Shown: positions 3,605 to 33,191 of the stretch, piece by piece
Numbering within the stretch: the stretch's first letter is position 1
How the letters are laid out: each line of letters opens with the position of its first letter
Source: Anderseniella sp. Alg231-50
Lineage (GTDB): Bacteria; Pseudomonadota; Alphaproteobacteria; Rhizobiales; Aestuariivirgaceae
Direction of reading: 5' to 3'
DNA length: 64,000 nucleotides
Assembly: GCF_900149695.1 (NCBI RefSeq)
Contig: NZ_LT703003.1
Location: forward strand, 1,984,001-2,048,000
Notes under the pieces: generated by a model
The model's database searches: none
What the model was told of the DNA's origin: nothing
What the model saw: only the letters and a program-made list of their open reading frames with translations
Made by a program: the position numbers and the translations under genes

Positions 3605-5005
3605 TCATGAATTTCCGGGCACATCGCTGTGCAGCGCCCTGATGCGCTGGGCCAGCGAGATGATATTGTTGTTTCCCGCATTCGCGCCTGCTGCCAGGGT
3701 CTTGCCGACAGGCTGACTGTTGTCCTGGGCCACCGCCGTGACCTCCATGGACGAACCCGGCAACTTGACTTCAGCCATTGCGACAGGTTCGGCAATCTCG
3801 GTTTCAGCTCCAGATTTAGCCTTGCTGGCTTTCGCAGACGCAGACTGTTGCTGTTGTTCAGCCGATTTTTCCTGCGGGCCGTCAGCATCTGATTTCGCAT
3901 CGTCAGCCGGTTTCTTTGCGGCCTTGTCCTTGGCGGTGTCTGCGGGATCGGACTTCGGATTCGCCTTGCGGGCTTTAGTGGATTTCTTGGTTGCCTCTGC
4001 CTTTTCATCCTCTGCCTTTTTATCCTCCGGTTTTTCGGAAGTGGCAGGGTTTTCGGCGGCGTCAGCATCCATATCGGTGTTGTTCTTGTTCCACATTTCG
4101 TCCAGGCGGGACAACTCTTCGGTCAGGGTTTCAGTTTCACGCTCGGTCTCGATGATTTTCTGCTCAAGCTGCTCGCTCGCGTTTACCTGACCGGACTTGA
4201 GCAGCATGTCCTGATTAGGAGTGGCCGACTTTTCATTCGTCTGCTTGGATTTTGTCTTGCCGGCGGCAGCGACCCTGGCATCGGCTTCGCGTGACCGGTT
4301 TATCTGCTCGCGCAAGATTGCCAGTTCATCCTGCTGCACTGACAAATCCTGGCGTTGTTCGTCAATTTGACGGGTGAGGGAGTTCATTTCCTCAATACGC
4401 TGGCGCAGTCTTTCCTGGGCATTCTCGAACTTTGACGACGCCATTCCCGTCAGGTCGGCCGAGGCCGGAGGGTTGTCGCTCTTGAGCGTCTCAATGATGA
4501 ACCACTGATCCGAGACCTTGGCTTCGGCAACTTTCAGCTTGCTTTGCAATTCGATGGATATTTCTTCCTTGGCCTGCAGAAGATCCTTCGCCTGCTGGAG
4601 CAATTCAGTCCGGTCCGTCAATTCACGCTCGAGTGCAGTTATCTGCAAGCGGAGATTGTCGGCGTCCTCGTCACGCTTGGTCAGTTCATCATCGCGGCGG
4701 CTGATTTCATCAGCCAGGTGTTCGATGCGGTTTCTGTTCCGGGACGCTTCAGCCATCTGCTCGGCCATGCGGGTTTTCAAATCATCGAGCCGCAGCTGCA
4801 GGCGTCGGCCCTGCATGGCGTATTCCGCCTTCAACCGGTCCCTGTCTGCCCTGAGCTCGGCAATGGCCGACGGCGCGCGACGTTCAACCCGGCGTTTCCC
4901 GAGACTGACTGCGTAAGTCCAAAGCCCGCGTACAACCAGCAATCCAACCAGAAGCGCACCGACAAACCCCAGTGCAACCAGCATGATAGTCTCAATTTGA
5001 GACAT
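3605..5005 (-). CDS. Membrane-anchored coiled-coil protein, function unknown
   Basis: The 466-residue protein has one N-terminal transmembrane segment (MLVALGFVGALLVGLLVVRGLW, about residues 8-29) followed by a basic stretch. A long heptad-rich coiled coil spans about residues 45-320 with many E/R/Q residues (RDRLKAEYAMQGRRLQLRL, LTRQIDEQRQDLSVQQDEL). A low-complexity Ala/Lys/Ser/Asp-rich region follows, and the short conserved-looking end is ISLAQRIRALHSDVPG. I start at MSQIETIMLV; the frame is open for 21 more codons. It converges with the DUF6476 gene, the stops being 18 bp apart. The shape suggests a cytoplasmic scaffold attached to the inner membrane. I do not recognise a named family. 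Confidence 0.8.
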   Translation of the reverse strand: MSQIETIMLVALGFVGALLVGLLVVRGLWTYAVSLGKRRVERRAPSAIAELRADRDRLKAEYAMQGRRLQLRLDDLKTRMAEQMAEASRNRNRIEHLADEISRRDDELTKRDEDADNLRLQITALERELTDRTELLQQAKDLLQAKEEISIELQSKLKVAEAKVSDQWFIIETLKSDNPPASADLTGMASSKFENAQERLRQRIEEMNSLTRQIDEQRQDLSVQQDELAILREQINRSREADARVAAAGKTKSKQTNEKSATPNQDMLLKSGQVNASEQLEQKIIETERETETLTEELSRLDEMWNKNNTDMDADAAENPATSEKPEDKKAEDEKAEATKKSTKARKANPKSDPADTAKDKAAKKPADDAKSDADGPQEKSAEQQQQSASAKASKAKSGAETEIAEPVAMAEVKLPGSSMEVTAVAQDNSQPVGKTLAAGANAGNNNIISLAQRIRALHSDVPGNS

Positions 5006-5347
5006 GAGTCCTCCAGAGGGCAATGACCACACAATTGTCGGATGGGACCCAAACATGCGGTGCGCCACAAACGACTAACAAATGGTAGTTCCGGCAACCT
5101 ACCTGTCGAATTAGATTGCCAGAGCGTCAATCGTAGTACACTGCACGATTGGTGTGAAGGTTAATTGTGCGATAGCCCGTGTTTATCGTGTTGAAAAGCA
5201 AAACTCCCACTTAGCAAGCATGTAACTCACAACCGGATTCCATGCCTTTTCCCAAAGGCCGGCTTGGGCGGGGACGTGTGCGAAGGCAAGTATACTTCCG
5301 CCTGTCCCCATCCCGGCGTTATCTGCACCATACAACTATGGCGAGCG
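5006..5347. other. Intergenic region with imperfect hairpin downstream of eipA
   Basis: No convincing gene lies in these 342 bp. The left part should hold the promoter of the coiled-coil gene. GGGGAC (5270-5275) and GTCCCC (5304-5309) form the base of an imperfect hairpin just past the eipA stop, read from the minus strand. It lacks a clear U-tract, so a terminator role is only possible. Confidence 0.4.
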
Positions 5348-5983
5348 TCAAAACGGGTTCAGTGTGGGGTATTCGGTGTATTTTAGGTATCCCACATTGG
5401 CACCGAGGCGAGCGCCGACGCCGGTGCGGATCGGCGCCAGTTTGAGTTCTTCGTTCGACTGAAAGTTCACACCCAGCCCACCGACCATGTAAGCGGACCC
5501 TTCAATGCCAATGAAACGGTCATAAATCTGGGTTTCGCGGTTGATGTTGTACACCAGAACCAGGACCCGGGAGCCGTTGCCGCCAAGATCAAACCCGACA
5601 GACGGGCCCTGCCAGTAAACCTTCTTGCGGGTGCCGTCCTTCATGAACAGGATGCCTTCCCCGTAGCGCAGCCCGCCAAAGAATGCGCCGGAGGCCTCTT
5701 CACCGATGATATAGCCGGACGGACGGCCTGCCTGTGAAAACACGGTCTCGACAGCCTTGGCAACGCCCTTGGTGGTGGTGCCGAACCAGCGATGGCCGCC
5801 CTGGACAATTTCTTCCGGGCTGTATGTGTTTGCCTCGGACTGCTCATATCCCGAGCGCGAGTATGACGTGCCGTCGTCGGCATCTGCGCCGCGCGCCTGG
5901 GCACGGTTTTCCAGGCCTGACAATGTTGAAAATGCTGTGATGGAAAGGCTCGCAAACGCAGCGAGCGCGAGGATACGTTTCAT
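5348..5983 (-). CDS. eipA: Envelope integrity protein EipA (DUF1134)
   Basis: This is a secreted periplasmic protein of 211 residues with a signal peptide (MKRILALAAFASLSITAFS, cleavage probably after AQA). The mature part is a DUF1134 domain, clear from YSPEEIVQGGHRWFG, PSGYIIGEEASGAFFGGLRY, KVYWQGPSVGFDLGGNGSRV and the family ending GARLGANVGYLKYTEYPTLN. EipA in Brucella and its Caulobacter homologue support cell-envelope integrity and cell division. The gene is unlinked to other envelope genes here and has its own promoter region upstream. Confidence 0.93.
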   Translation of the reverse strand: MKRILALAAFASLSITAFSTLSGLENRAQARGADADDGTSYSRSGYEQSEANTYSPEEIVQGGHRWFGTTTKGVAKAVETVFSQAGRPSGYIIGEEASGAFFGGLRYGEGILFMKDGTRKKVYWQGPSVGFDLGGNGSRVLVLVYNINRETQIYDRFIGIEGSAYMVGGLGVNFQSNEELKLAPIRTGVGARLGANVGYLKYTEYPTLNPF

Positions 5984-6141
5984 ATGTTTTACTCACCTGA
6001 TACTGACAAACTCAAACAACTGCCCAGCCATCAAGGGCAGTAAACTCAGATCAGTATGCGTGATGAGGCGTTAATGGACCGTATACGATTAACAAAATAT
6101 TGCTGAAACAGAAGATTAAGAATGCGTTCAGCATGCAAGGT

Positions 6142-6951
6142 TCAGCAGCCTTGCGCCGACACCGACGCAATGAAAGCGGGATTGTCGAAACCGCGGCCTG
6201 CCTTGCCATACCGAAGCGGTTCTCCGGCTGCCTCGAATACCTCGCCACCTGCGGCAGCCAGCACCGCATGACCGGCCGCGGTGTCCCACTCCATGGTGCG
6301 GCCAAAGCGCGGATACAGGTGGGCCTTGCCGCTGGCCAGCAGGCAGAATTTCAGGGACGAACCGGCAGGCACAATTTCCGCAACATCGCGTTGTGCCAGC
6401 CAGGCATCGGTTGTTTCATCACGATGTGAGCGGCTGGCAACCACCTTGATACCTGATGCCGGCAATGCCGGGCATTCGATACGCTGCAGCGCCGGGGCCG
6501 CCGGAAAACTCTCGTCAGCTTCCAAGGAAGTTTCAAAGGCGCCTGAAACCAACTCACCTGCGTACAGGGTCGACAGGGCTGGTGCATACACCACGCCGGC
6601 AATCGGGGCGGCATCGCGTACAAGTGCGATGTTGACGGTAAACTCGCCATTGCGGCTGATGAACTCGCGCGTGCCGTCAAGCGGGTCCACCAGGTAAAAT
6701 TCCTGCGTGACCTGAGGCGTTGCACCGGCAGATACGGCTTCTTCCGCGATTATGTTGGAGGTCGGGTCCAGCCCGTTCAGGCCTTCCAGAATGATGGCCT
6801 CTGCTGCGATGTCCGCCTCGGTTACAGGCGAGGCATCCGCCTTGCTGGCGACCTCGAAATCGTCATTGTAGATTTCCATGATGCGCGCGCCCGCCGCATG
6901 CGCGATTTTCATCAGCGACAGCAGGTGCTGTGATGGTTCGGGGATGGTCAT
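6142..6951 (-). CDS. cysQ: 3'(2'),5'-bisphosphate nucleotidase CysQ
   Basis: CysQ hydrolyses 3'-phosphoadenosine 5'-phosphate to AMP and so recycles the product of sulfate assimilation. It belongs to the inositol-monophosphatase superfamily of Mg-dependent, lithium-sensitive phosphatases. Metal-binding motifs are EEAVSAG (about residues 68-74), DPLDGTREF and, near the C-terminus, EWDTAAGHAVLAAAGG. The start at MTIPEPSQHL gives 269 residues, normal for CysQ; the frame runs 45 codons further upstream through sequence with no family similarity. It is divergent from chpT with about 195 bp between them. Confidence 0.92.
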   Translation of the reverse strand: MTIPEPSQHLLSLMKIAHAAGARIMEIYNDDFEVASKADASPVTEADIAAEAIILEGLNGLDPTSNIIAEEAVSAGATPQVTQEFYLVDPLDGTREFISRNGEFTVNIALVRDAAPIAGVVYAPALSTLYAGELVSGAFETSLEADESFPAAPALQRIECPALPASGIKVVASRSHRDETTDAWLAQRDVAEIVPAGSSLKFCLLASGKAHLYPRFGRTMEWDTAAGHAVLAAAGGEVFEAAGEPLRYGKAGRGFDNPAFIASVSAQGC

Positions 6952-7146
6952 GAAGTTGATTCGGCTCACATTTTCACAATTTTGACTTTGCCGTAAACAA
7001 GGCGCTGGATGTTCTGTAGTTGAATTGTTGAGTCGGAACAAGGTGTTGTTGCAATCCGGTATTGCCGGGTTGGCAGGGCTTGGCACACCCCGCTAGACTC
7101 ACGCCGGGAAATCAACAGAAGACAACCGTAAGAGGGACCCTGTTTC

Positions 7147-7785
7147 ATGAAATTCAACGCTGTGTTGAGTGATCTCGACCTTGCAGCACTGCTATGCTCG
7201 AAAGTCTGCCACGATGTCATTTCACCGGTTGGCGCCATTGCCAACGGGCTCGAAGTACTGGAGGACGAACAGGACGCTGAAATGCGTGACATTGCCTTTG
7301 ATCTGGTGCGCCGGTCATCGCGGCAGGCATCGGCAAAGCTTCAGTTTTGCCGCATCGCCTTTGGAGCCGCCGGCTCTGCGGGATCCAGCATCGATACAGG
7401 TGACGCGGAAGACGTGGCCAAGAAGTTCATCGGTGAAGACAAGATCACGCTTGAATGGGAAGTTCCGCGCGAAATTCGCCCGAAGAACCAGGTCAAGCTG
7501 ATCCTGAACCTGGTCATGCTGGCGATTTCATCCATTCCCCGCGGCGGAAAGATCACCATGGGTGTGGCTGATGGCGGCGGGTTGACCGCGCGGGCCGAAG
7601 GCAAGAACGCCAAGGTGCCCGAAAAGACCCTGGTCATGCTGGAAGGCGATGCGCAGCAAGATGCCATGGATGCCCGTCTTGCCCAGGTTTACTACACTCT
7701 GAGACTGGCAAATGAGTGCGAGCTTGATCTCACGGCCGCCAATACCGGTGAGGATGCGGTTGAATACTCAGCACTGCCTGCTTGA
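7147..7785 (+). CDS. chpT: Histidine phosphotransferase ChpT
   Basis: ChpT relays phosphate from the CckA hybrid kinase to CtrA and CpdR in the alphaproteobacterial cell-cycle pathway. The phosphorylated histidine is His22 in SKVCHDVISPVGAIANGLEVL (split here for reading: SKVCHD, then VISPVGAIANGLEVL), the dimerisation helix typical of the family. The C-terminal part is a degenerate kinase ATPase fold (QVKLILNLVMLAISSIPRGG). At 212 residues it has the usual length. The GNAT gene starts four bases after its stop, so the two are probably co-transcribed. ctrA, its final target, is less than 2 kb away on the other strand. Confidence 0.93.
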   Translation: MKFNAVLSDLDLAALLCSKVCHDVISPVGAIANGLEVLEDEQDAEMRDIAFDLVRRSSRQASAKLQFCRIAFGAAGSAGSSIDTGDAEDVAKKFIGEDKITLEWEVPREIRPKNQVKLILNLVMLAISSIPRGGKITMGVADGGGLTARAEGKNAKVPEKTLVMLEGDAQQDAMDARLAQVYYTLRLANECELDLTAANTGEDAVEYSALPA

Positions 7786-7788
7786 GCA

Positions 7789-8295
7789 ATGGACCCTGAG
7801 CTTCAGATCGTTGAAGGATACAGGCCGGGAGCCGTGGCGGCGATTACCGCTCACCACATCAACTATTACGCCCAGGAATGGGGGTTCGGGCTGGCGTTTG
7901 AAACCAAGGTGGCAATTGAGTGTGCGGCGTTCCTTCAACGCTATGATGAGCGGCTCGACCGGGTCTGGCTGGTGGTCCGGGATGGCGCAATTGAAGGATC
8001 TTTGATACTGGACCATGACAAGTCCGGCGAAATGCATGATGGCCTGCACCTCAGATGGTTCATCATGTCAGACAGGCTGCGCGGGACCGGTTCCGGGCGG
8101 GCGCTCATGAAACGGGCTGTCGAATTTGCAGACGAGGCTGCAGGCGGCAGGGTGTGGCTCACAACATTTCGCGGCCTGGGCGCGGCCCGGCGGTTGTATG
8201 AAGATTTCGGATTCCATCTGGCAAGCGAAGTCGAAGGCGAGACCTGGGGACGGACTGTGCACGAGCAATTGTGGCTCAGGCATCCTCATCCCTGA
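7789..8295 (+). CDS. GNAT family N-acetyltransferase
   Basis: This is an acetyl-CoA-dependent acyltransferase of 168 residues. The acetyl-CoA-binding motif A is visible as FIMSDRLRGTGSGRALMKRAV (the R-x-x-G-x-G/A pattern RLRGTGSG, about residues 96-103), followed by the motif B-like region GAARRLYEDFGF typical of GNATs. The substrate is unknown. It starts 4 bp after chpT and is likely co-transcribed with it. Its last 20 bp overlap the 3' end of the convergent ATC-hydrolase-family gene. Confidence 0.85.
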   Translation: MDPELQIVEGYRPGAVAAITAHHINYYAQEWGFGLAFETKVAIECAAFLQRYDERLDRVWLVVRDGAIEGSLILDHDKSGEMHDGLHLRWFIMSDRLRGTGSGRALMKRAVEFADEAAGGRVWLTTFRGLGAARRLYEDFGFHLASEVEGETWGRTVHEQLWLRHPHP

Positions 8296-8755
8296 TCGAA
8301 TAACGAAAGTCGCAATGGGATGCGCCCTGCATGATGGTCTGGGTTCTGATCAGCGAAATACGGGCATCATAACCTTTGCAGAACGTGCCGTCGCGTCCGC
8401 ACGACAGCAGGTGGCCAATGTCGGCTAATCCCATTTCCTTATACATTTCAGCATATTGGCAACGCGTTACATTGTAATTCACGTTGCTTTCGGTTTCTTC
8501 CAGCATATCAACCTCAAGGGCGCCATTGGCTTTCCACTGGGGCAGCAGGGCATGGAAACTTTCCAGAGAGGTGTCGCCACCTTCGGTTTTTGCGTAAGCG
8601 GCACCTTGCTCGATGGCATTTTTGGTGATGGCTGCTGAAATGATCTTGCGGGCCTTTTCGTCACCGATTTCAGCCTTCATCTCTTCGTAGATCGGCTTGA
8701 TGATATTGGCTTCTATGCGGCGTTGCTCAAGAATCGGCAGGTCGGTTTTGCTCAT
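8276..8755 (-). CDS. L-2-amino-thiazoline-4-carboxylic acid hydrolase family protein
   Basis: The 159-residue protein matches the ATC-hydrolase family, defined on the enzyme that opens the ring of 2-amino-thiazoline-4-carboxylate on the way to L-cysteine. Visible features are the N-terminal helical part (EQRRIEANIIKPIYEEM) and the C-terminal conserved block with TRCQYAEMYKEMGLADIGHLLSC and CKGYDARISLIRTQTIMQGA (each quoted in part), rich in Cys and His-adjacent residues as in the family. ATG at 8755 (MSKTDLP) is preferred to the frame opening at 8770. Most members are uncharacterised, so the substrate is not assured. It overlaps the GNAT gene tail-to-tail. Confidence 0.8.
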   Translation of the reverse strand: MSKTDLPILEQRRIEANIIKPIYEEMKAEIGDEKARKIISAAITKNAIEQGAAYAKTEGGDTSLESFHALLPQWKANGALEVDMLEETESNVNYNVTRCQYAEMYKEMGLADIGHLLSCGRDGTFCKGYDARISLIRTQTIMQGASHCDFRYSIRDEDA

Positions 8756-8880
8756 TGATGAAAACCTCATGGGGTTCTGATTGCTTGTTGTACCAGTGCC
8801 ATGGGGGCGGGCGGGTTACAAGCCTGGTTTTTGCGGACCAGCCGGTGCACGCGCCAGATGGATATTGTGCCCCAACAACC

Positions 8881-8910
8881 AAAAAACCCCCGGCAGAGCC
8901 TCGCCGGGGG
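8881..8910 (-). terminator. Intrinsic terminator of ctrA
   Basis: On the minus strand, about 60 bp past the ctrA stop, CCCCCGGC (pairing 8903-8910 with 8887-8894) forms an 8-bp all-G/C stem with an 8-base loop. A run of six T (8886-8881) follows immediately. This is a textbook rho-independent terminator. Confidence 0.88.
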
Positions 8911-8972
8911 TGTTCTGGTGCCGTCATGGTGCACATGGCACCCTTCAGGTCCGCACTCGGTTTTCGGTGCTG

Positions 8973-9662
8973 TCAGGCGGCAACGTCTTCAGTTTCGCGC
9001 AGTACATAACCGCGACCCCAAACCGTTTCGATGAAGTTCTGGCCATCTGCTGCTGCAGCCAGTTTCTTGCGCAGCTTGCAGATGAACACGTCAATGATCT
9101 TGAGTTCCGGCTCGTCCATGCCGCCATAAAGATGGTTCAGGAACATTTCCTTGGTCAGCGTAGTGCCCTTGCGCAGACTCAGCAGTTCCAGCATCTGGTA
9201 TTCCTTGCCGGTCAGATGCACGCGCTGGCCACCGACTTCCACAGTCTTGGTATCCAGGTTGACCTGCAGCTCGCCGGTGATGATGACCGACTGCGAATGG
9301 CCTTTCGAACGTCGTACAACTGCATGGATGCGGGCAACCAGTTCGTCCTTGTGGAACGGCTTGGTCATGTAGTCGTCCGCGCCGAAGCCGAGACCGCGTA
9401 CCTTGTCCTCGATGCCGGCCATGCCGGACAATATCAGGATCGGTGTGTTGATTTTCGCCACCCGCAACGTCTTGAGCACGTCATAGCCGCTCATGTCGGG
9501 CAGGTTGAGATCGAGAAGGATAATATCGTAATCGTAAAGCTTGCCGAGATCGACGCCTTCTTCACCCAAGTCCGTAGTGTAACAGTTAAAGCCGTCCGAC
9601 TTGAGCATCAGCTCGATGCTCTGCGCTGTTGCAGAGTCGTCTTCAATCAACAGAACTCTCAT
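8973..9662 (-). CDS. ctrA: Cell-cycle response regulator CtrA
   Basis: CtrA is the OmpR-type master regulator of alphaproteobacterial cell cycle, polarity and motility. The receiver domain occupies residues 1-120 with acidic pocket EDD (7-9), phosphoacceptor Asp51 ([13 protein letters not shown]) and Lys in [13 protein letters not shown]. The winged-helix DNA-binding domain follows ([40 protein letters not shown]). The start MRVLLIEDD at 9662 is the one conserved in the family, giving 229 residues; the frame opens 10 codons earlier. CtrA is phosphorylated through ChpT, encoded nearby, and repressed in activity by SciP, also nearby. A TTAACCAT-type site in its upstream region suggests autoregulation. 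Confidence 0.97.
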
Positions 9663-27877: not shown

Positions 27878-27888
27878 GAGGCTGATTG

Positions 27889-28458
27889 ATGTTGGTTGGA
27901 TATGCGAGAACGTCTACCGTTGAACAGCAGGCGGGCCTTGAAGCCCAAGAACGTGACCTGGGTGCATGCGGAGCAGAAAAGCTGTTCGTGGAGCAAGTGT
28001 CATCGATAGCGAAGCGTGATGAGCTTCAAAACGCTTTGGAGTATGTTCGAGAAGGCGACACTCTGGTTGTCACCAAGCTCGACCGGTTAGCTCGATCTAC
28101 TTCAGACTTACTCAACATCGTTAGCCGTCTCGAGAACAACGGGGTGGGACTGCGTATTCTAGATTTTGGTGGTGGCGAGATTGACACTAAGACACCAGCT
28201 GGTCGTTTGACAGTAACGATGTTCGCTGCCATGGCTGAGTTTGAACGTGGGATGATGTTGGAACGGCAACGCGAAGGCATTGCCAAGGCCAAAGCCGAGG
28301 GAAAGTACAAAGGCCGCAAGCCTACAGCAATGGCGAAATCAGACGAAGTGTTGGACTTGCATGGGGAAGGAATAGGCCCTACCGAAATTGCTGCCAGATT
28401 GTCCATCGGGCGAGCTTCAGTTTATCGTATCTTAGCGCAATCGAACTCGTCAAACTGA
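27889..28458 (+). CDS. Serine recombinase / resolvase
   Basis: The 189-residue small serine recombinase has its catalytic serine at residue 9 in LVGYARTSTVEQQ. The family blocks VVTKLDRLARSTSDLLNIVS, GRLTVTMFAAMAEFERGMML and the E-helix RQREGIAKAKAEGKYKGRKP follow, and the C-terminal HTH is TEIAARLSIGRASVYRIL. ATG 27889 directly follows an in-frame TTG. With the three-subsite res region upstream it could resolve dimers or cointegrates. No tnpA transposase accompanies it. Confidence 0.95.
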   Translation: MLVGYARTSTVEQQAGLEAQERDLGACGAEKLFVEQVSSIAKRDELQNALEYVREGDTLVVTKLDRLARSTSDLLNIVSRLENNGVGLRILDFGGGEIDTKTPAGRLTVTMFAAMAEFERGMMLERQREGIAKAKAEGKYKGRKPTAMAKSDEVLDLHGEGIGPTEIAARLSIGRASVYRILAQSNSSN

Positions 28459-28495: not shown

Positions 28496-29314
28496 ATGCC
28501 CAAAGTCAAATCGAAACTATTCTCAGAGGATCAATTGAGAGCGGTTTCCAAAATCCTCGGCAATACAGACTTTGGTCTCACAAACACTGAAATTGATGAT
28601 TTGCTGCACATATGCAAAGTGCCTGACGAAATGGGGCCGGGGACTAAATGGCGGCGTATTCTCGTCAATCTGTACAATCATCAGATTAGGAGGAACACTC
28701 GAACAAACGCCATTGAATTCATTAGGCAAGCAATGAAGCCAGCTAGGCATTTAGGAAACCCAGATCGCTTTAAGGCGATGCGGAGCGAACTCAACACAGC
28801 TCTTTCATTTGCTGGATTGATGGTGTTGGAAACAGGCGAAGTGAAATCTGCAAAGGTAGCTACTACCATCGAAGAAGCCGAGCGCAGGGCTGCTGAATTG
28901 AAGGAAGATTTGCAAACACGTGGTGTTCATCCAGACGTCATCAAATTCTGTCGCGCCGAGTTGCTGGCCGACGACTATTTTCATGCTGTGCAAGAGGCTG
29001 TTAAAAGTGTTTTCGATAAACTCAGACTATTGTCGGGTCAGGCTGAAGATGGTGGAGCCTTGATAAATGAGGTTTTGGCCAGTTCGTCTCCAGCAATTAG
29101 GATCAATAAACTATCAACAGAAAGTGAGAAATCTGAACAGAGGGGCTTCGCAAACTTGCTTAAGGGCACCTACGGTATGTTTCGCAATCCTACTGCTCAC
29201 GAAGCAAGAATTAAATGGAGCATGACAAAGGCGGACGCAGAAGATTTGCTTTCCTTGGTTTCTCTCATTCACCGACGGCTTGATGCTTCTCACGCAAGTA
29301 AGAGGTCAATCTAG
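28496..29314 (+). CDS. TIGR02391-family protein
   Basis: The 272-residue protein has the Hypoth_ymh (TIGR02391) C-terminal domain: YFHAVQEAVKSVFDKLRLLS, NEVLASSSPAIRINKLS, RGFANLLKGTYGMFRNPTAH and LSLVSLIHRRLD. The N-terminal about 100 residues are helical and unassigned. The family is found in bacterial defence loci and mobile elements; its biochemical activity is not established. It follows the resolvase by 37 bp and may be co-transcribed. Confidence 0.85.
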   Translation: MPKVKSKLFSEDQLRAVSKILGNTDFGLTNTEIDDLLHICKVPDEMGPGTKWRRILVNLYNHQIRRNTRTNAIEFIRQAMKPARHLGNPDRFKAMRSELNTALSFAGLMVLETGEVKSAKVATTIEEAERRAAELKEDLQTRGVHPDVIKFCRAELLADDYFHAVQEAVKSVFDKLRLLSGQAEDGGALINEVLASSSPAIRINKLSTESEKSEQRGFANLLKGTYGMFRNPTAHEARIKWSMTKADAEDLLSLVSLIHRRLDASHASKRSI

Positions 29315-29631: not shown

Positions 29632-29823
29632 ATGGAATATCTTTCAGAAATAGTCAGTTTTTTGGCTGGGCTCTGCGGAGGCGCACTAATTACGATTAGC
29701 TTAACGAAGACGAAAAAGCAGGTTAAAGGCAAAGGTAGTTTAGTGGACCAGCAATCAGCTCACGCAGAGGGAGATATTGTTGGGGGCAACAAAACAGTTG
29801 GAAATGAACCCAACAAGAAATGA
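29632..29823 (+). CDS. Small membrane protein with GDIVGGNK motif, ABC-3C associated
   Basis: The 63-residue protein has one N-terminal membrane segment (IVSFLAGLCGGALITISL), a Lys-rich stretch and the motif SAHAEGDIVGGNK near the C-terminus. The same D-I-V-G-G-N-K motif starts the next protein, so the two were probably derived from one type of peptide. ATG at 29632 follows a G-rich ribosome-binding site, and the stop overlaps the next start (ATGA). It may tether the ABC-3C complex to the membrane. Confidence 0.75.
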   Translation: MEYLSEIVSFLAGLCGGALITISLTKTKKQVKGKGSLVDQQSAHAEGDIVGGNKTVGNEPNKK

Positions 29824-30404
29824 ACAATGACCAGGGTACTGGCCCAAACATAGATCAATCACATGCAACAGCCGGACAAGATATTGTTGGGGGAAACAAG
29901 TATGACTTTTCTAATCATAAAAGCGCGTATGAGGCTATAGAAGCTCTTGCAAGCAAGTTGAAGCAAGAGGTTGCTGACGAAGCTACAGTTCAGCACACCA
30001 TTAGAAATTTGGCATATTACAAACGGAGAAAGGAAGCTGGTGACGGAATAGTGGGGCTTGAAGCTAAGCTCAAAGCAGGCGGGCGTCTTGATCTCTGGGA
30101 CGAAGACGCGTTAGACCAAAAAGTGGAATTTGAGATGCTCCTGGAGACGTGGTCAATGTATGCGTCTGCCCAAGAAATTTTTGCTCATATGCTAGCTAAA
30201 GTCGAAAGAGCCTTTAAACAACAGATCAAACCGAAACTTCCTGATTTGTCGCATGACGTGGCCGACAGCATGGTTGATAAACTGGTTCTCAATCCGATTA
30301 TCGATGAATGCAGTAAAATCAATCATTTTTTTGTCAACGTGAATGTTGCGCTCGGAATGCTATATTGGTTGGCTGATCATTGCTTCATCCGGTGGCACGA
30401 ATGA
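29820..30404 (+). CDS. ABC-three-component (ABC-3C) C-terminal-domain-type protein
   Basis: The 194-residue protein begins with PNIDQSHATAGQDIVGGNKY, a motif that marks one component of ABC-3C systems. A helical body follows (YEAIEALASKLKQEVADEAT, FEMLLETWSMYASAQEIFAH). ABC-3C systems, described through comparative genomics as predicted conflict (defence) systems, pair such a component with a middle component and an SMC-like ATPase, as here. Subfamily cannot be fixed by eye. Start and stop codons overlap both neighbours by the ATGA pattern, implying translational coupling. Confidence 0.75.
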   Translation: MNNDQGTGPNIDQSHATAGQDIVGGNKYDFSNHKSAYEAIEALASKLKQEVADEATVQHTIRNLAYYKRRKEAGDGIVGLEAKLKAGGRLDLWDEDALDQKVEFEMLLETWSMYASAQEIFAHMLAKVERAFKQQIKPKLPDLSHDVADSMVDKLVLNPIIDECSKINHFFVNVNVALGMLYWLADHCFIRWHE

Positions 30405-30928
30405 CACAGCTCTCTTACCAGCCTGCCTTTGACGCCTACAATGCCATTTTTCGCATTCTTCAATTGCAAACTGTTTGCTCGAGCAGTGTCGCGGTTCCTT
30501 TAGATGCTCTGCGCATAGGTGATTTCTTTTTGTTGTTTCCGTTCATGCTGCAAGACAGTGACATTCGCTATCGCTCGGGCGACCAAAAAATTCGGAGCGT
30601 TGGAAAGAAATATGAAGCAGATCGCCCCTTTAGCCGATTGCCAGATAAAAAAACGCTGTTCCGTCGTATAAGACCTTTCCAAACTGCAGCAATCGCTGGG
30701 CTTGTTCACAGTGGATACATGGATGCGGAAAAATGGGACCAGAGGTTTATTCTACCCACAAAACGAGAACTGCCTGGAGTGTTAAAGCAACGGGTCGCAG
30801 AAAAATGCCAAGGCAATTCGGCACTCCTTGAGGCGATTGGGCTGCTATTGAACGAATATCCGCTTGAGGGCAAAAACGGCCTCAAAGATCGTTCAAGCTT
30901 GTTAGAGTACAGATATGACCTTGTATGA
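30401..30928 (+). CDS. ABC-3C middle component
   Basis: The 175-residue protein starts MTQLSYQPAFDAYNAIFRIL, a typical middle-component opening (F-D-x-Y-x-x-I/L-F-R-x-L). It contains LRIGDFFLLFPFML and ADRPFSRLPDKKTLFRRIRP, with a likely winged-helix part (FQTAAIAGLVHSGYM). It begins at the ATGA overlap with the previous stop and ends 14 bp inside the ATPase gene. It should bridge the ATPase and the terminal-domain protein. Confidence 0.75.
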   Translation: MTQLSYQPAFDAYNAIFRILQLQTVCSSSVAVPLDALRIGDFFLLFPFMLQDSDIRYRSGDQKIRSVGKKYEADRPFSRLPDKKTLFRRIRPFQTAAIAGLVHSGYMDAEKWDQRFILPTKRELPGVLKQRVAEKCQGNSALLEAIGLLLNEYPLEGKNGLKDRSSLLEYRYDLV

Positions 30929-32834
30929 ACCTTCATTGCATGTTCGCCGCCTGAGGGTCGAGAGAGACGGTCTTTCTGCCTACGATGAAGAGTTTCACCT
31001 TGGCGTAAACATTATTAGCGGTGAAAACAGCTCTGGCAAATCAACGATTTTGAACTTCATTCACTTTGCGCTTGGGGGAGATGTAATTGAATGGAGTGAC
31101 GAAGCGAAGCTTTGTTCACGGGTCATGGTTGAAGTGGGTTTGAACGGACTGCTAGCGACTTTATCGCGTTCAATCGGTGATGAGCCGCGGCGGCCTATGG
31201 AAATAATCAGTGGAGGTATGGAGCTTGCGCTAAATGCACCAACACAAAACTGGAAGCGGTATCCGTACGCCCGGGCCGCAAATGCTGATGGCAAGGAGAG
31301 CTTTTCTCAGACGCTTTTTAGACTTCTAGATGTTCCTGAAGCCGCAAGCGAAGCTACGGGCAAGCTGACGATGCACCAGATATTGCGGCTGCATTATGCC
31401 GATCAACTGAGCCCGCCGGACAACCTTTTCAAGGTTGATGATAGGTGGGACACCCCGGTGCTTCGTGACGCTATCGGAAGGCTCCTTTGTGGGTCAGAAG
31501 AGACAAAACTACTCGAAAACAGGCTTAGGTTGAGGGAGTTGGATAAGCAGACGTCTGCACTTGAAGGCGAGCTGCGGGCAATTTTTTCTGCATTTGGTCA
31601 AGTTGGAGAAAACCTAACGCCGGAGTGGGTTGAGGCGCAAAAGCAAAGTTTGATTGCTGACCTTCAATCAGTGAATGTCGAGATATCTCGTGCTGAAGAA
31701 GACCAGTTGGCTGCAAGTGAAGACGATTTCACTCTGGAGCTGCAACAAACTGCATATTTGGGGCTGGAAAATGCCCAGAATGTAATTACTGAAACAAAAG
31801 AGAAACGCGACAGCTTGGCCTTTGGTTTGGCTGACCTTCGGAGCTACCGAAAAAGTATCTCAAACAAGCTGGACGACCTACGAAATTCTGAAGCAGTGCA
31901 AGTCGCATTGGGTGCAGTAATTTTTGATACCTGTCCTGCTTGCTTCGAGCCAGTAATCGAAAATGACGAATACGTTTGCCATTTATGCAAGACACCTGTT
32001 CAACCAGAAAGGCAGCGCGAGCAAATGGTTGCGATGGTCAATGAATTAGCATTGCAGGTGCGCCAAACAGAGGCAATTATTGAAAAAAGGCAAACTGAGC
32101 TAGAGGTTGTGAACAGCGCTCTAACAGAGGCCAAAAATAATTGGCAACATGCTGCGAGAGAATTGGCAGAATTGCGTTCTCGTCCCACATCGAAGTCGCA
32201 AGCACGAATTCGCAGCCTCCAATCGCGAAAAGGCTATTTGGAGAGGCAAATTGAAGAGCAGGACCGGAAGGGTACTGTTGCTGATAAGGTTAAGAGTATA
32301 ACTCTGAGAAAAGAAGAATTGGCAACCACTATCGAACGACTGCGAAATGAAAATATAGCGCTGGAAACTGCTCAAGAACAAAGGATTGCAACTGCATATA
32401 CAGCGATATCTGATGAGATTAAGTATTTTCTTAGAAATGACTTACCTAGACAAAAAGAGTTTATTGACCCTCGTTCGGTAATTTTTGATTTTGGTGCCAA
32501 TAAGATCAGCGTCAACGATAGTACATATTTTTCTGCTAGTTCGCGTGCGGTATTAAAGACTAGTTTTTTCGTTGGCTTTTTGTTCGCTTCGCTAGACCAT
32601 CAGTATTTTCGACATCTGCGCATTTGCTTGATTGATACAATTGAAGACAAGGGTATGGAGGATGAAAGAAGCCACAACCTGCAAAACTTAGTTTTTGAGC
32701 GTTCTGAGAGCGCCGAAGTTGAGCATCAAATTATTTATGCCACAGCAAAGATCTCACCTCAACTGAAGGAAAAAAACCTAGTGGTTGGAAAACATTATAC
32801 TGAAGCAGAACCTAGCCTAGATTTTGCAAACTAA
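30915..32834 (+). CDS. SMC/Rad50-like ATPase of the ABC-3C system
   Basis: The 639-residue ATPase has a Walker A motif GENSSGKSTIL (about 36-46) after a strand VNIISG. Long coiled-coil arms (about 190-300 and 370-480) flank a zinc-hook-like CPAC...CHLC at about 338-356. The C-terminal half carries the ABC domain with SSRAVLKTSFFVGFLFASL (signature-like) and LRICLIDTIEDKGMEDERSH (Walker B-like; the usual terminal acidic pair is DT rather than DE). This Rad50-like plan is that of ABC-3C ATPases. It is cytoplasmic and probably acts on DNA or nucleoprotein during phage infection; the latter is inference. Confidence 0.85.
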   Translation: MTLYEPSLHVRRLRVERDGLSAYDEEFHLGVNIISGENSSGKSTILNFIHFALGGDVIEWSDEAKLCSRVMVEVGLNGLLATLSRSIGDEPRRPMEIISGGMELALNAPTQNWKRYPYARAANADGKESFSQTLFRLLDVPEAASEATGKLTMHQILRLHYADQLSPPDNLFKVDDRWDTPVLRDAIGRLLCGSEETKLLENRLRLRELDKQTSALEGELRAIFSAFGQVGENLTPEWVEAQKQSLIADLQSVNVEISRAEEDQLAASEDDFTLELQQTAYLGLENAQNVITETKEKRDSLAFGLADLRSYRKSISNKLDDLRNSEAVQVALGAVIFDTCPACFEPVIENDEYVCHLCKTPVQPERQREQMVAMVNELALQVRQTEAIIEKRQTELEVVNSALTEAKNNWQHAARELAELRSRPTSKSQARIRSLQSRKGYLERQIEEQDRKGTVADKVKSITLRKEELATTIERLRNENIALETAQEQRIATAYTAISDEIKYFLRNDLPRQKEFIDPRSVIFDFGANKISVNDSTYFSASSRAVLKTSFFVGFLFASLDHQYFRHLRICLIDTIEDKGMEDERSHNLQNLVFERSESAEVEHQIIYATAKISPQLKEKNLVVGKHYTEAEPSLDFAN

Positions 32835-32870
32835 GATATTTTGTTGTGTCTGTGACGATGGGAATGAGAG

Positions 32871-33191
32871 GTGATCAGATTGGCAAAAGCACGCAAGATT
32901 GTTTTAGAGACCCGTTCGTTCAACAAAGTGGGTGAAGCCTCAGAATTCTTCAAAGAGATGTTAAACAGCTACTCAATTGGTGAGCGTGCTTCTGAGGAGG
33001 ACGCAGCAGACCTTATTGCACTCCTTAACCGCCACGATCAGAGAATTGAAAAGATTGGGGCTGGCATTTCTTACTTTGAAGTTGGATTGCCACCAGAACA
33101 TCCCGGCAAATGTTTCTGGATTGTTAGAGTGGATGGAAGCAAAATGGATTTTTCCCTCAAGCACTGTTTGGCTCCGAAGCCTTATGATTAA
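32871..33191 (+). CDS. DUF3223 (DCL-type) domain protein
   Basis: The 106-residue protein is nearly all domain: ETRSFNKVGEASEFFKEMLN, YSIGERASEEDAADLIALLN, RHDQRIEKIGAGISYFEVGL and CFWIVRVDGSKMDFSLKHCL, matching DUF3223, also known from the plant DCL protein involved in rRNA and plastid maturation. GTG start after GAGAG. It follows the ATPase gene by 36 bp on the same strand, so it is probably a fifth gene of that operon. Confidence 0.8.
   Translation: MIRLAKARKIVLETRSFNKVGEASEFFKEMLNSYSIGERASEEDAADLIALLNRHDQRIEKIGAGISYFEVGLPPEHPGKCFWIVRVDGSKMDFSLKHCLAPKPYD

Follow-up and report, generated by a model that had tools for sequence, protein, structure and literature searches.

Introduction

In the ABC-three-component (ABC-3C)/Lamassu systems (LmuA–LmuC–LmuB), an effector is fused to the N-terminus of LmuA and may be a nuclease, trypsin, hydrolase, TIR, SIR2, or other domain, and abortive infection is the presumed mode of Lamassu action, as laid out in a review (PMC10586767). 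Two further arrangements also bear on the locus considered here: in bacterial amyloid signaling sequence (BASS) pairs, diverse motifs of ~20–40 residues at the N-terminus of a receptor match the C-terminus of an effector encoded by the adjacent gene (PMC8086366, PMC12261475), and with the effector-associated domains (EADs) of multicellular bacteria, the effector can be part of the same protein or be recruited in trans through an adaptor of the same kind (PMC7159879, PMC8195603). Herein, we analyse a five-gene stretch (29632–33191) in a 64,000-nucleotide segment of the Anderseniella sp. Alg231-50 genome (contig NZ_LT703003.1; hereafter the window, the numbering of which is used throughout), in which a 63-residue membrane peptide and the adjacently encoded third component of an ABC-3C complex carry the same tail motif. 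This putative defence operon seems to link a DNA-sensing complex to a tiny membrane protein via a shared tag, in an arrangement that recurs in distant bacteria and resembles signalling by self-assembling tags. The ABC-3C family itself is known; an in-trans effector with matched tails was not found described in the literature searched, outside of which lay the paper cited for the ABC-3C classification (Krishnan et al. 2020, doi 10.1093/nar/gkaa726).

Results

A CTD9/MC5-type ABC-3C operon with a repeated tail motif

The proposed effector is encoded by a 63-aa open reading frame (ORF) with an ATG start (29632..29823; this and all other operon features lie on the + strand), in which an N-terminal hydrophobic stretch (~29650–29703) is followed by a basic tail predicted to be cytoplasmic, with a net charge of −2 before the stretch and +5 after it. 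The Lys-rich tail contains GDIVGGNK as part of the motif SLVDQQSAHAEGDIVGGNK (29737..29793; DIVGGNK at 29773–29793), while the next protein, a 194-aa CTD9 third component (29820..30404), bears QDIVGGNK near its N-terminus within PNIDQSHATAGQDIVGGNK (29844..29900; DIVGGNK at 29880–29900), ahead of the CTD9 domain itself (residues 79–192; 30054–30395). A preliminary description of this DNA had already pointed to the motif common to the two small proteins. Rendered as a degenerate DNA pattern, the motif has exactly two occurrences in the 4.6-Mb genome, both in the operon, and the reversed control pattern has none; the repeated motif is thus not a product of chance.

Downstream lie the middle component MC5 (175 aa, in the LmuC position; 30401..30928) and a LmuB/Rad50-like ABC ATPase (639 aa, with CPAC...CHLC; 30915..32834), the proposed sensor. 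Pfam matches were clear for CTD9 (PF20285, E 8.3e-27, 94.4 bits against a cut-off of 27.9) and MC5 (PF20291, E 3.5e-42, 144.5 bits against a cut-off of 25), and the ATPase matched AAA_23 above cut-off (2.7e-8) as well as the PADLOC LmuB profile across residues 6–631 (1.5e-39). The operon is therefore an ABC-3C system (Lamassu superfamily) of the CTD9/MC5 type, complete with third component, middle component, and Rad50/SMC-like ATPase, in agreement with the family assignment made earlier; its role in defence, judged from that family, is a probable one. The 63-aa peptide matched no profile in Pfam, NCBIfam, or PADLOC, and sequence searches of the PDB returned nothing for the CTD9 protein and Rad50 3tho alone (0.0063) for the ATPase. 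As originally reported, the first four genes overlap (by 4, 4, and 14 nt, suggestive of coupled translation) and a DUF3223 gene begins 36 bp beyond the ATPase stop. Promoter and terminator scans of the operon gave results near shuffle level.

Tails are matched within each locus and differ among loci

We assembled 70 CTD9 loci: 59 from genome_contigs, 6 from plasmids, 4 from other genomes, and the window. Given that the genome_contigs scan rested on a single peptide pattern, this set is a sample and not a census. Two loci (L073 and L074) are copies of contig loci L037 and L050 and one (L069) is degraded; these three were left out of the tests on 61 non-redundant loci. When the last 32 residues of each effector were aligned to the N-terminal tail of its own CTD9 protein, the mean BLOSUM62 local score was 59.5, compared to 31.9 for shuffled partners, with none of 10,000 shuffles attaining 59.5. 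Beyond what the preliminary description had stated, the motif is thus both matched within each locus and specific to it, as illustrated by the effector/CTD9 pairs KIKQKAGKKSKQYASGGDMTINK / EISQEAGNNSEQYSSVGSMHINK (L061), NSTFNGPYAGRDI / NSNFFGPYAGRDL (L056), and GSTVHGSVRAGNDTN / GSNIQGGVRVGDDTN (L037). Two loci found late and kept outside the statistics were matched as well, i.e., L080 (score 45) and, by eye, L102 (VAQSGNFAGGHIAAGNVTT / VVQSGNHAGGHIAGGSVST).

The tail match persists after control for relatedness. The two motif matrices showed a rank correlation of 0.70, and of 0.64 given CTD9 core identity (0/2,000 permutations; 61 loci). When partners were swapped for those of relatives (core identity of at least 40%), the score fell from 60.0 to 47.6, and in 49 of 55 loci the own partner was better; at a core identity of at least 50%, it still prevailed in 35 of 45. 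With one locus taken from each of 12 clusters, the values were 61.5 vs 30.3. Stretches located just before the last 32 effector residues served as controls, and 2/61 of these also reached a score of 44, a limit set by eye; five effectors (5/61; L025, L027, L042, L052, and L057) carry a second, tandem motif copy. For the ends of MC5 and the ATPase, mean scores against the tail were 14.6–16.3 and none reached 44.

At the DNA level, the same codon was used at 315 of the 693 identical residues in the 61 pairs, where local codon use predicts 290.6 (z 2.0); with codon identity this near to expectation, the likeness is held mainly at the level of protein. Copying may explain the slight excess. Locus L038, with 13/13 codons shared, looks like such a recent event; the window, with 5/13 shared (four of them consecutive) and 4.8 expected, does not.

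Proposed effectors encoded upstream of CTD9 are exchangeable

An ORF treated as that of the effector was detected directly upstream of CTD9 in 64 of 70 loci, meaning that a split in which a membrane peptide and its soluble partner each carry the motif, viewed at the outset as an unusual version of the system, is in fact the usual layout of the CTD9 group. Most of these effectors are peptides with one hydrophobic, transmembrane (TM) stretch near the N-terminus, some are longer proteins with at least two stretches, and those of five Bacteroidota loci (L058, L059, L060, L063, and L065) are soluble and helical, with a sixth such case (L080) found later. Two selection choices were made after viewing of the loci, namely a drop in the hydrophobicity limit from 1.5 to 1.2 and the inclusion by name of the five soluble effectors. 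Median length among the 56 non-redundant TM effectors is 59 aa (49–125), and in 53 of these the net charge is higher after the stretch than before; this positive-inside pattern places the effector tail, by prediction, in the cytoplasm. A GxxxG motif is present in the hydrophobic stretch of 22/56, and the stretch of the window peptide is glycine-rich, features that would be compatible with self-association of the peptide in the membrane. In the three plasmid records with annotation, the peptides are labelled as hypothetical proteins.

Exchange of effector type behind a conserved tag type is seen at L049. Its effector has two hydrophobic stretches and an N-terminal part unrelated to that of L063 (score 23), yet its tag is of the type found in the soluble-effector group (scores of 70–78 with four of the five and 46 with L058), and its CTD9 core is ~50% identical to theirs. 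For the soluble effectors, AlphaFold2, supplied with five sequences, produced a helical model of modest quality (mean pLDDT 70.7). No known fold was identified for these proteins, with nothing significant in Foldseek (best E 0.9) and weak Pfam matches below cut-off; any likeness to Bell/HeLo-like domains is thus tentative.

Six loci lack an upstream effector ORF. In two from Photobacterium (L030 and L033; ~4.1–6.4 kb), CTD9 is instead fused to a domain and no tail motif is seen. The fused domain of L033 matches a PADLOC LmuA profile (1.2e-9); A peptidase match was not obtained from Pfam for the fused domain, which looks from a reading of its sequence like a trypsin-type protease. The gene upstream in L033 encodes a metallo-beta-lactamase by Pfam and matches another LmuA profile (5.6e-60). 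In L070, judged by eye since the CTD9 frame is broken in the record, both tails carry GGDIVGRDK. For L021, L022, and L072, CTD9, MC5, and the ATPase are present and neither a tail motif nor an upstream effector ORF was found; their effector may be encoded elsewhere, be of another kind, or have been lost. Among the 64 loci with an effector ORF, the degraded L069 has an unmatched peptide tail (score 15).

The CTD9 protein and the ATPase

By Pfam, the 194-aa CTD9 protein of the window has no enzyme domain and no fused effector. In its AlphaFold2 model, the body resembles the LmuA C-terminal domain (the best eight structural matches are all LmuA), and the first 30 residues, which form the N-terminal tail, are of low confidence and unstructured.

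The ATPase retains the Walker A, signature, and Walker B positions. It had initially been described as Rad50-like with a zinc-hook-like CxxC pair, of which the ATPase assignment holds but the single pair does not; two CxxC pairs (CPAC...CHLC; four Cys) are present in all 56 full-length ATPases, the window included, with CPxC, the usual zinc-hook form of LmuB-type ATPases, likewise in 56/56. A zinc hook in which each chain contributes a single CxxC was accordingly rejected. In Walker B, the Asp is followed by Thr in the window and mostly by Asn, Thr, or Gly among the 56 sequences, while a Glu three residues past this Asp is invariant (56/56). ATP hydrolysis may thus be slow, or may use the shifted Glu. 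A Glu-to-Gln change in Walker B, called general for Lamassu in the review (PMC10586767), is not seen in the window ATPase.

Distribution of the CTD9 branch

This branch occurs in records of Pseudomonadota, Bacteroidota, Acidobacteria, and Verrucomicrobia. It is rare and patchy, with a CTD9 match in 6 of 398 phylum genomes including that of the window (5 above cut-off), in 2 of 60 relatives (one being the same genome), and in 0/5 other genomes of the genus. MC5 is present in 70/70 loci and the ATPase in 67/70, with the exceptions of L015 and L058, where the locus ends at that point, and the degraded L069. Phage records gave no CTD9 match and no soluble effector was found in plasmids or phages, viral_contigs lying outside the scan. 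In a tblastn search of 72,556 plasmid records, an Agrobacterium peptide retrieved 4 records and a 26-residue tail 3, all of which carry CTD9 loci. With respect to other third components, the CTD7 proteins sampled were all long (8/8; 388–480 aa), consistent with fused effectors; CTD10 had a match in 7/249 genomes, and CTD11 had none in 249, where the control likewise found no match.

Two Agrobacterium plasmid loci are of further note. The annotation of L067 (NZ_CP110833.1) lists, in the same order as in the window, a hypothetical protein, an ABC-three component system protein, middle component 5, an ATP-binding protein, and a DCL family protein, and this five-gene operon is followed, at locus positions 8149-9537, by genes for a DNA cytosine methyltransferase and a very short patch repair endonuclease. 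Locus L069 (NZ_CP047389.1, locus 4270-8638) is broken, with no ATPase found and with genes for a Mu transposase C-terminal domain, TniB, and TniQ in the place of MC5 and the ATPase.

The DUF3223 gene and genomic surroundings

The fifth gene of the window (32871..33191; GTG start) encodes a 106-aa DUF3223 (DCL family) protein that matches PF11523 (4.5e-21; Pfam) and carries the PADLOC label HamC. This gene had been regarded as a defining addition to the operon; however, it is not conserved beside it. Among the 54 loci that have a complete ATPase and 400 nt or more of downstream sequence, the gene adjoins the operon in only 4, one of them the window. As a core part it was thus rejected, and it is probably an occasional neighbour. 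A sequence search of the PDB connected it to 2k0m and, less strongly, to the largest subunits of plant Pol IV and V, which suggested no role here. With respect to Hachiman type II, neither HamA nor HamB was found among 10 proteins of the operon and its neighbourhood (PADLOC; for the ATPase, among the best 25 of 42 families; the rest of the window lay outside the scan).

Upstream of the operon are a serine recombinase gene (27886-28458) and a gene (28496-29314) matching PADLOC PD-Lambda-3_B at 5.1e-74 (TIGR02391/Hypoth_Ymh); given these neighbours, the operon may be part of a small cluster of defence genes. The G+C content is 0.42–0.51 over 20–34 kb and 0.53–0.58 over 34–42 kb, a shift that falls right behind the operon and is of the kind expected of acquired DNA.

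Discussion

We consider it probable that the CTD9 tail recruits a separate effector in trans, with clustered tails gathering the membrane peptides and so damaging the membrane. The LmuB-like ATPase and MC5 would together act as a sensor, probably of foreign or damaged DNA, holding the CTD9 protein in a resting state. LmuA, as solved, self-associates; by analogy, CTD9 would upon triggering be released or rearranged and would self-associate likewise, bringing its flexible N-terminal tails together. The gathered tails would then bind the like tails of membrane peptides at the cytoplasmic face, and peptides thus concentrated would open or damage the membrane, through like-with-like contacts that are perhaps amyloid-like in nature. 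What the analysis shows is family membership, gene order, co-varying tail pairs, the predicted cytoplasmic side of the tail, exchange of effector types, and absence of the motif where a domain is fused; tail–tail binding, clustering, membrane damage, and the trigger are inferred. Two aspects of the tail data run counter to the matching of tails. The own partner ranks first in just 25/64 rows and 33/64 columns, because the GGDIVGRDK type is common to many loci, and 4/61 pairs score below 44.

A more specific form of this scheme, which we regard as a tentative possibility, is that an SMC/Rad50-type DNA sensor kills by prion-like templating: CTD9 oligomers would seed an amyloid-like stack that recruits peptides bearing the same motif, with the motif of each lineage serving as an address and effectors as exchangeable modules. 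Out of 122 tails, two BASS3-type example peptides (as opposed to family profiles) match 8 and 3, respectively, at p≤0.05, where ~6 would be expected by chance, and a fungal sigma peptide matches somewhat more often (20/122). Should prion-like templating apply, a further receptor class, beside NOD-like receptors (NLRs), would be wired to amyloid signalling, and lineage-specific motifs would limit cross-talk between systems.

Recruitment of an effector must be set against simpler uses of the same parts. The peptide might merely tether the CTD9–MC5–ATPase complex to the membrane, with damage inflicted by another part or by an unlinked enzyme; one-TM peptides with the positive-inside pattern noted above could indeed do so, and the CTD9 protein has no enzyme domain detectable by Pfam. 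Such an anchor is nevertheless unlikely, as five loci, and L080 as well, have in this position a soluble helical protein that is devoid of a TM stretch yet has a matched tail, and as the motif is missing from loci with a domain fused to CTD9, which better fits an effector role. Matched tails could also arise if both occupy a single groove, be it on the ATPase, on MC5, or on some host protein, such that the peptide competes with or inhibits CTD9 as an antidote or regulator. Two ligands of one site would look alike too, and the tail statistics do not separate this arrangement from tail–tail contact; still, the tandem motifs in 5/61 effectors and the very different motif types are better suited to self-like assembly, and we judge a shared docking site to be rather improbable.

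That the tails are functionless relics of duplication is highly improbable, and already largely refuted by the tail-match and codon statistics. In its favour are the shared codons at L038 and the run of four in the window, but codon identity over all pairs is near expectation, the pattern spans several phyla, and the match stands above all shuffles after control for relatedness. Recruitment in trans by matched tails, if true, would couple DNA sensing of the SMC-like kind with signalling through tags, perhaps amyloid ones, and would also offer a simple code that can be tested with matched vs mismatched tails, and would allow tail matching to reveal effectors missed by domain searches.

The operon may be compared with three described arrangements. 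As in ABC-3C/Lamassu systems, CTD9, MC5, and a LmuB-like ATPase are encoded in the same order as LmuA, LmuC, and LmuB, and the CTD9 model resembles the LmuA C-terminal domain. However, whereas the Lamassu/ABC-3C effectors listed in the review (PMC10586767) are fused enzymes, this branch appears to use a separate, tag-addressed membrane effector; in the window, the CTD9 protein begins with no more than a short tail, and the matching tail is found on a peptide of its own, the proposed effector. The layout of matched motifs, with receptor N-terminus set against the C-terminus of a neighbouring effector, is that of the BASS pairs of bacterial NLRs and Bell-domain effectors, and the tandem motifs recall those reported for BASS4 and HET-s (PMC8086366, PMC12261475). 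Here, though, the receptor is an SMC-like ABC-3C complex with CTD9 as the partner, and not an NLR, and most effectors are TM peptides. Lastly, CTD9 loci follow the same fused-or-in-trans logic as EADs, but in place of a folded adaptor domain, they employ a short tail that is unstructured or of low confidence in the two models made.

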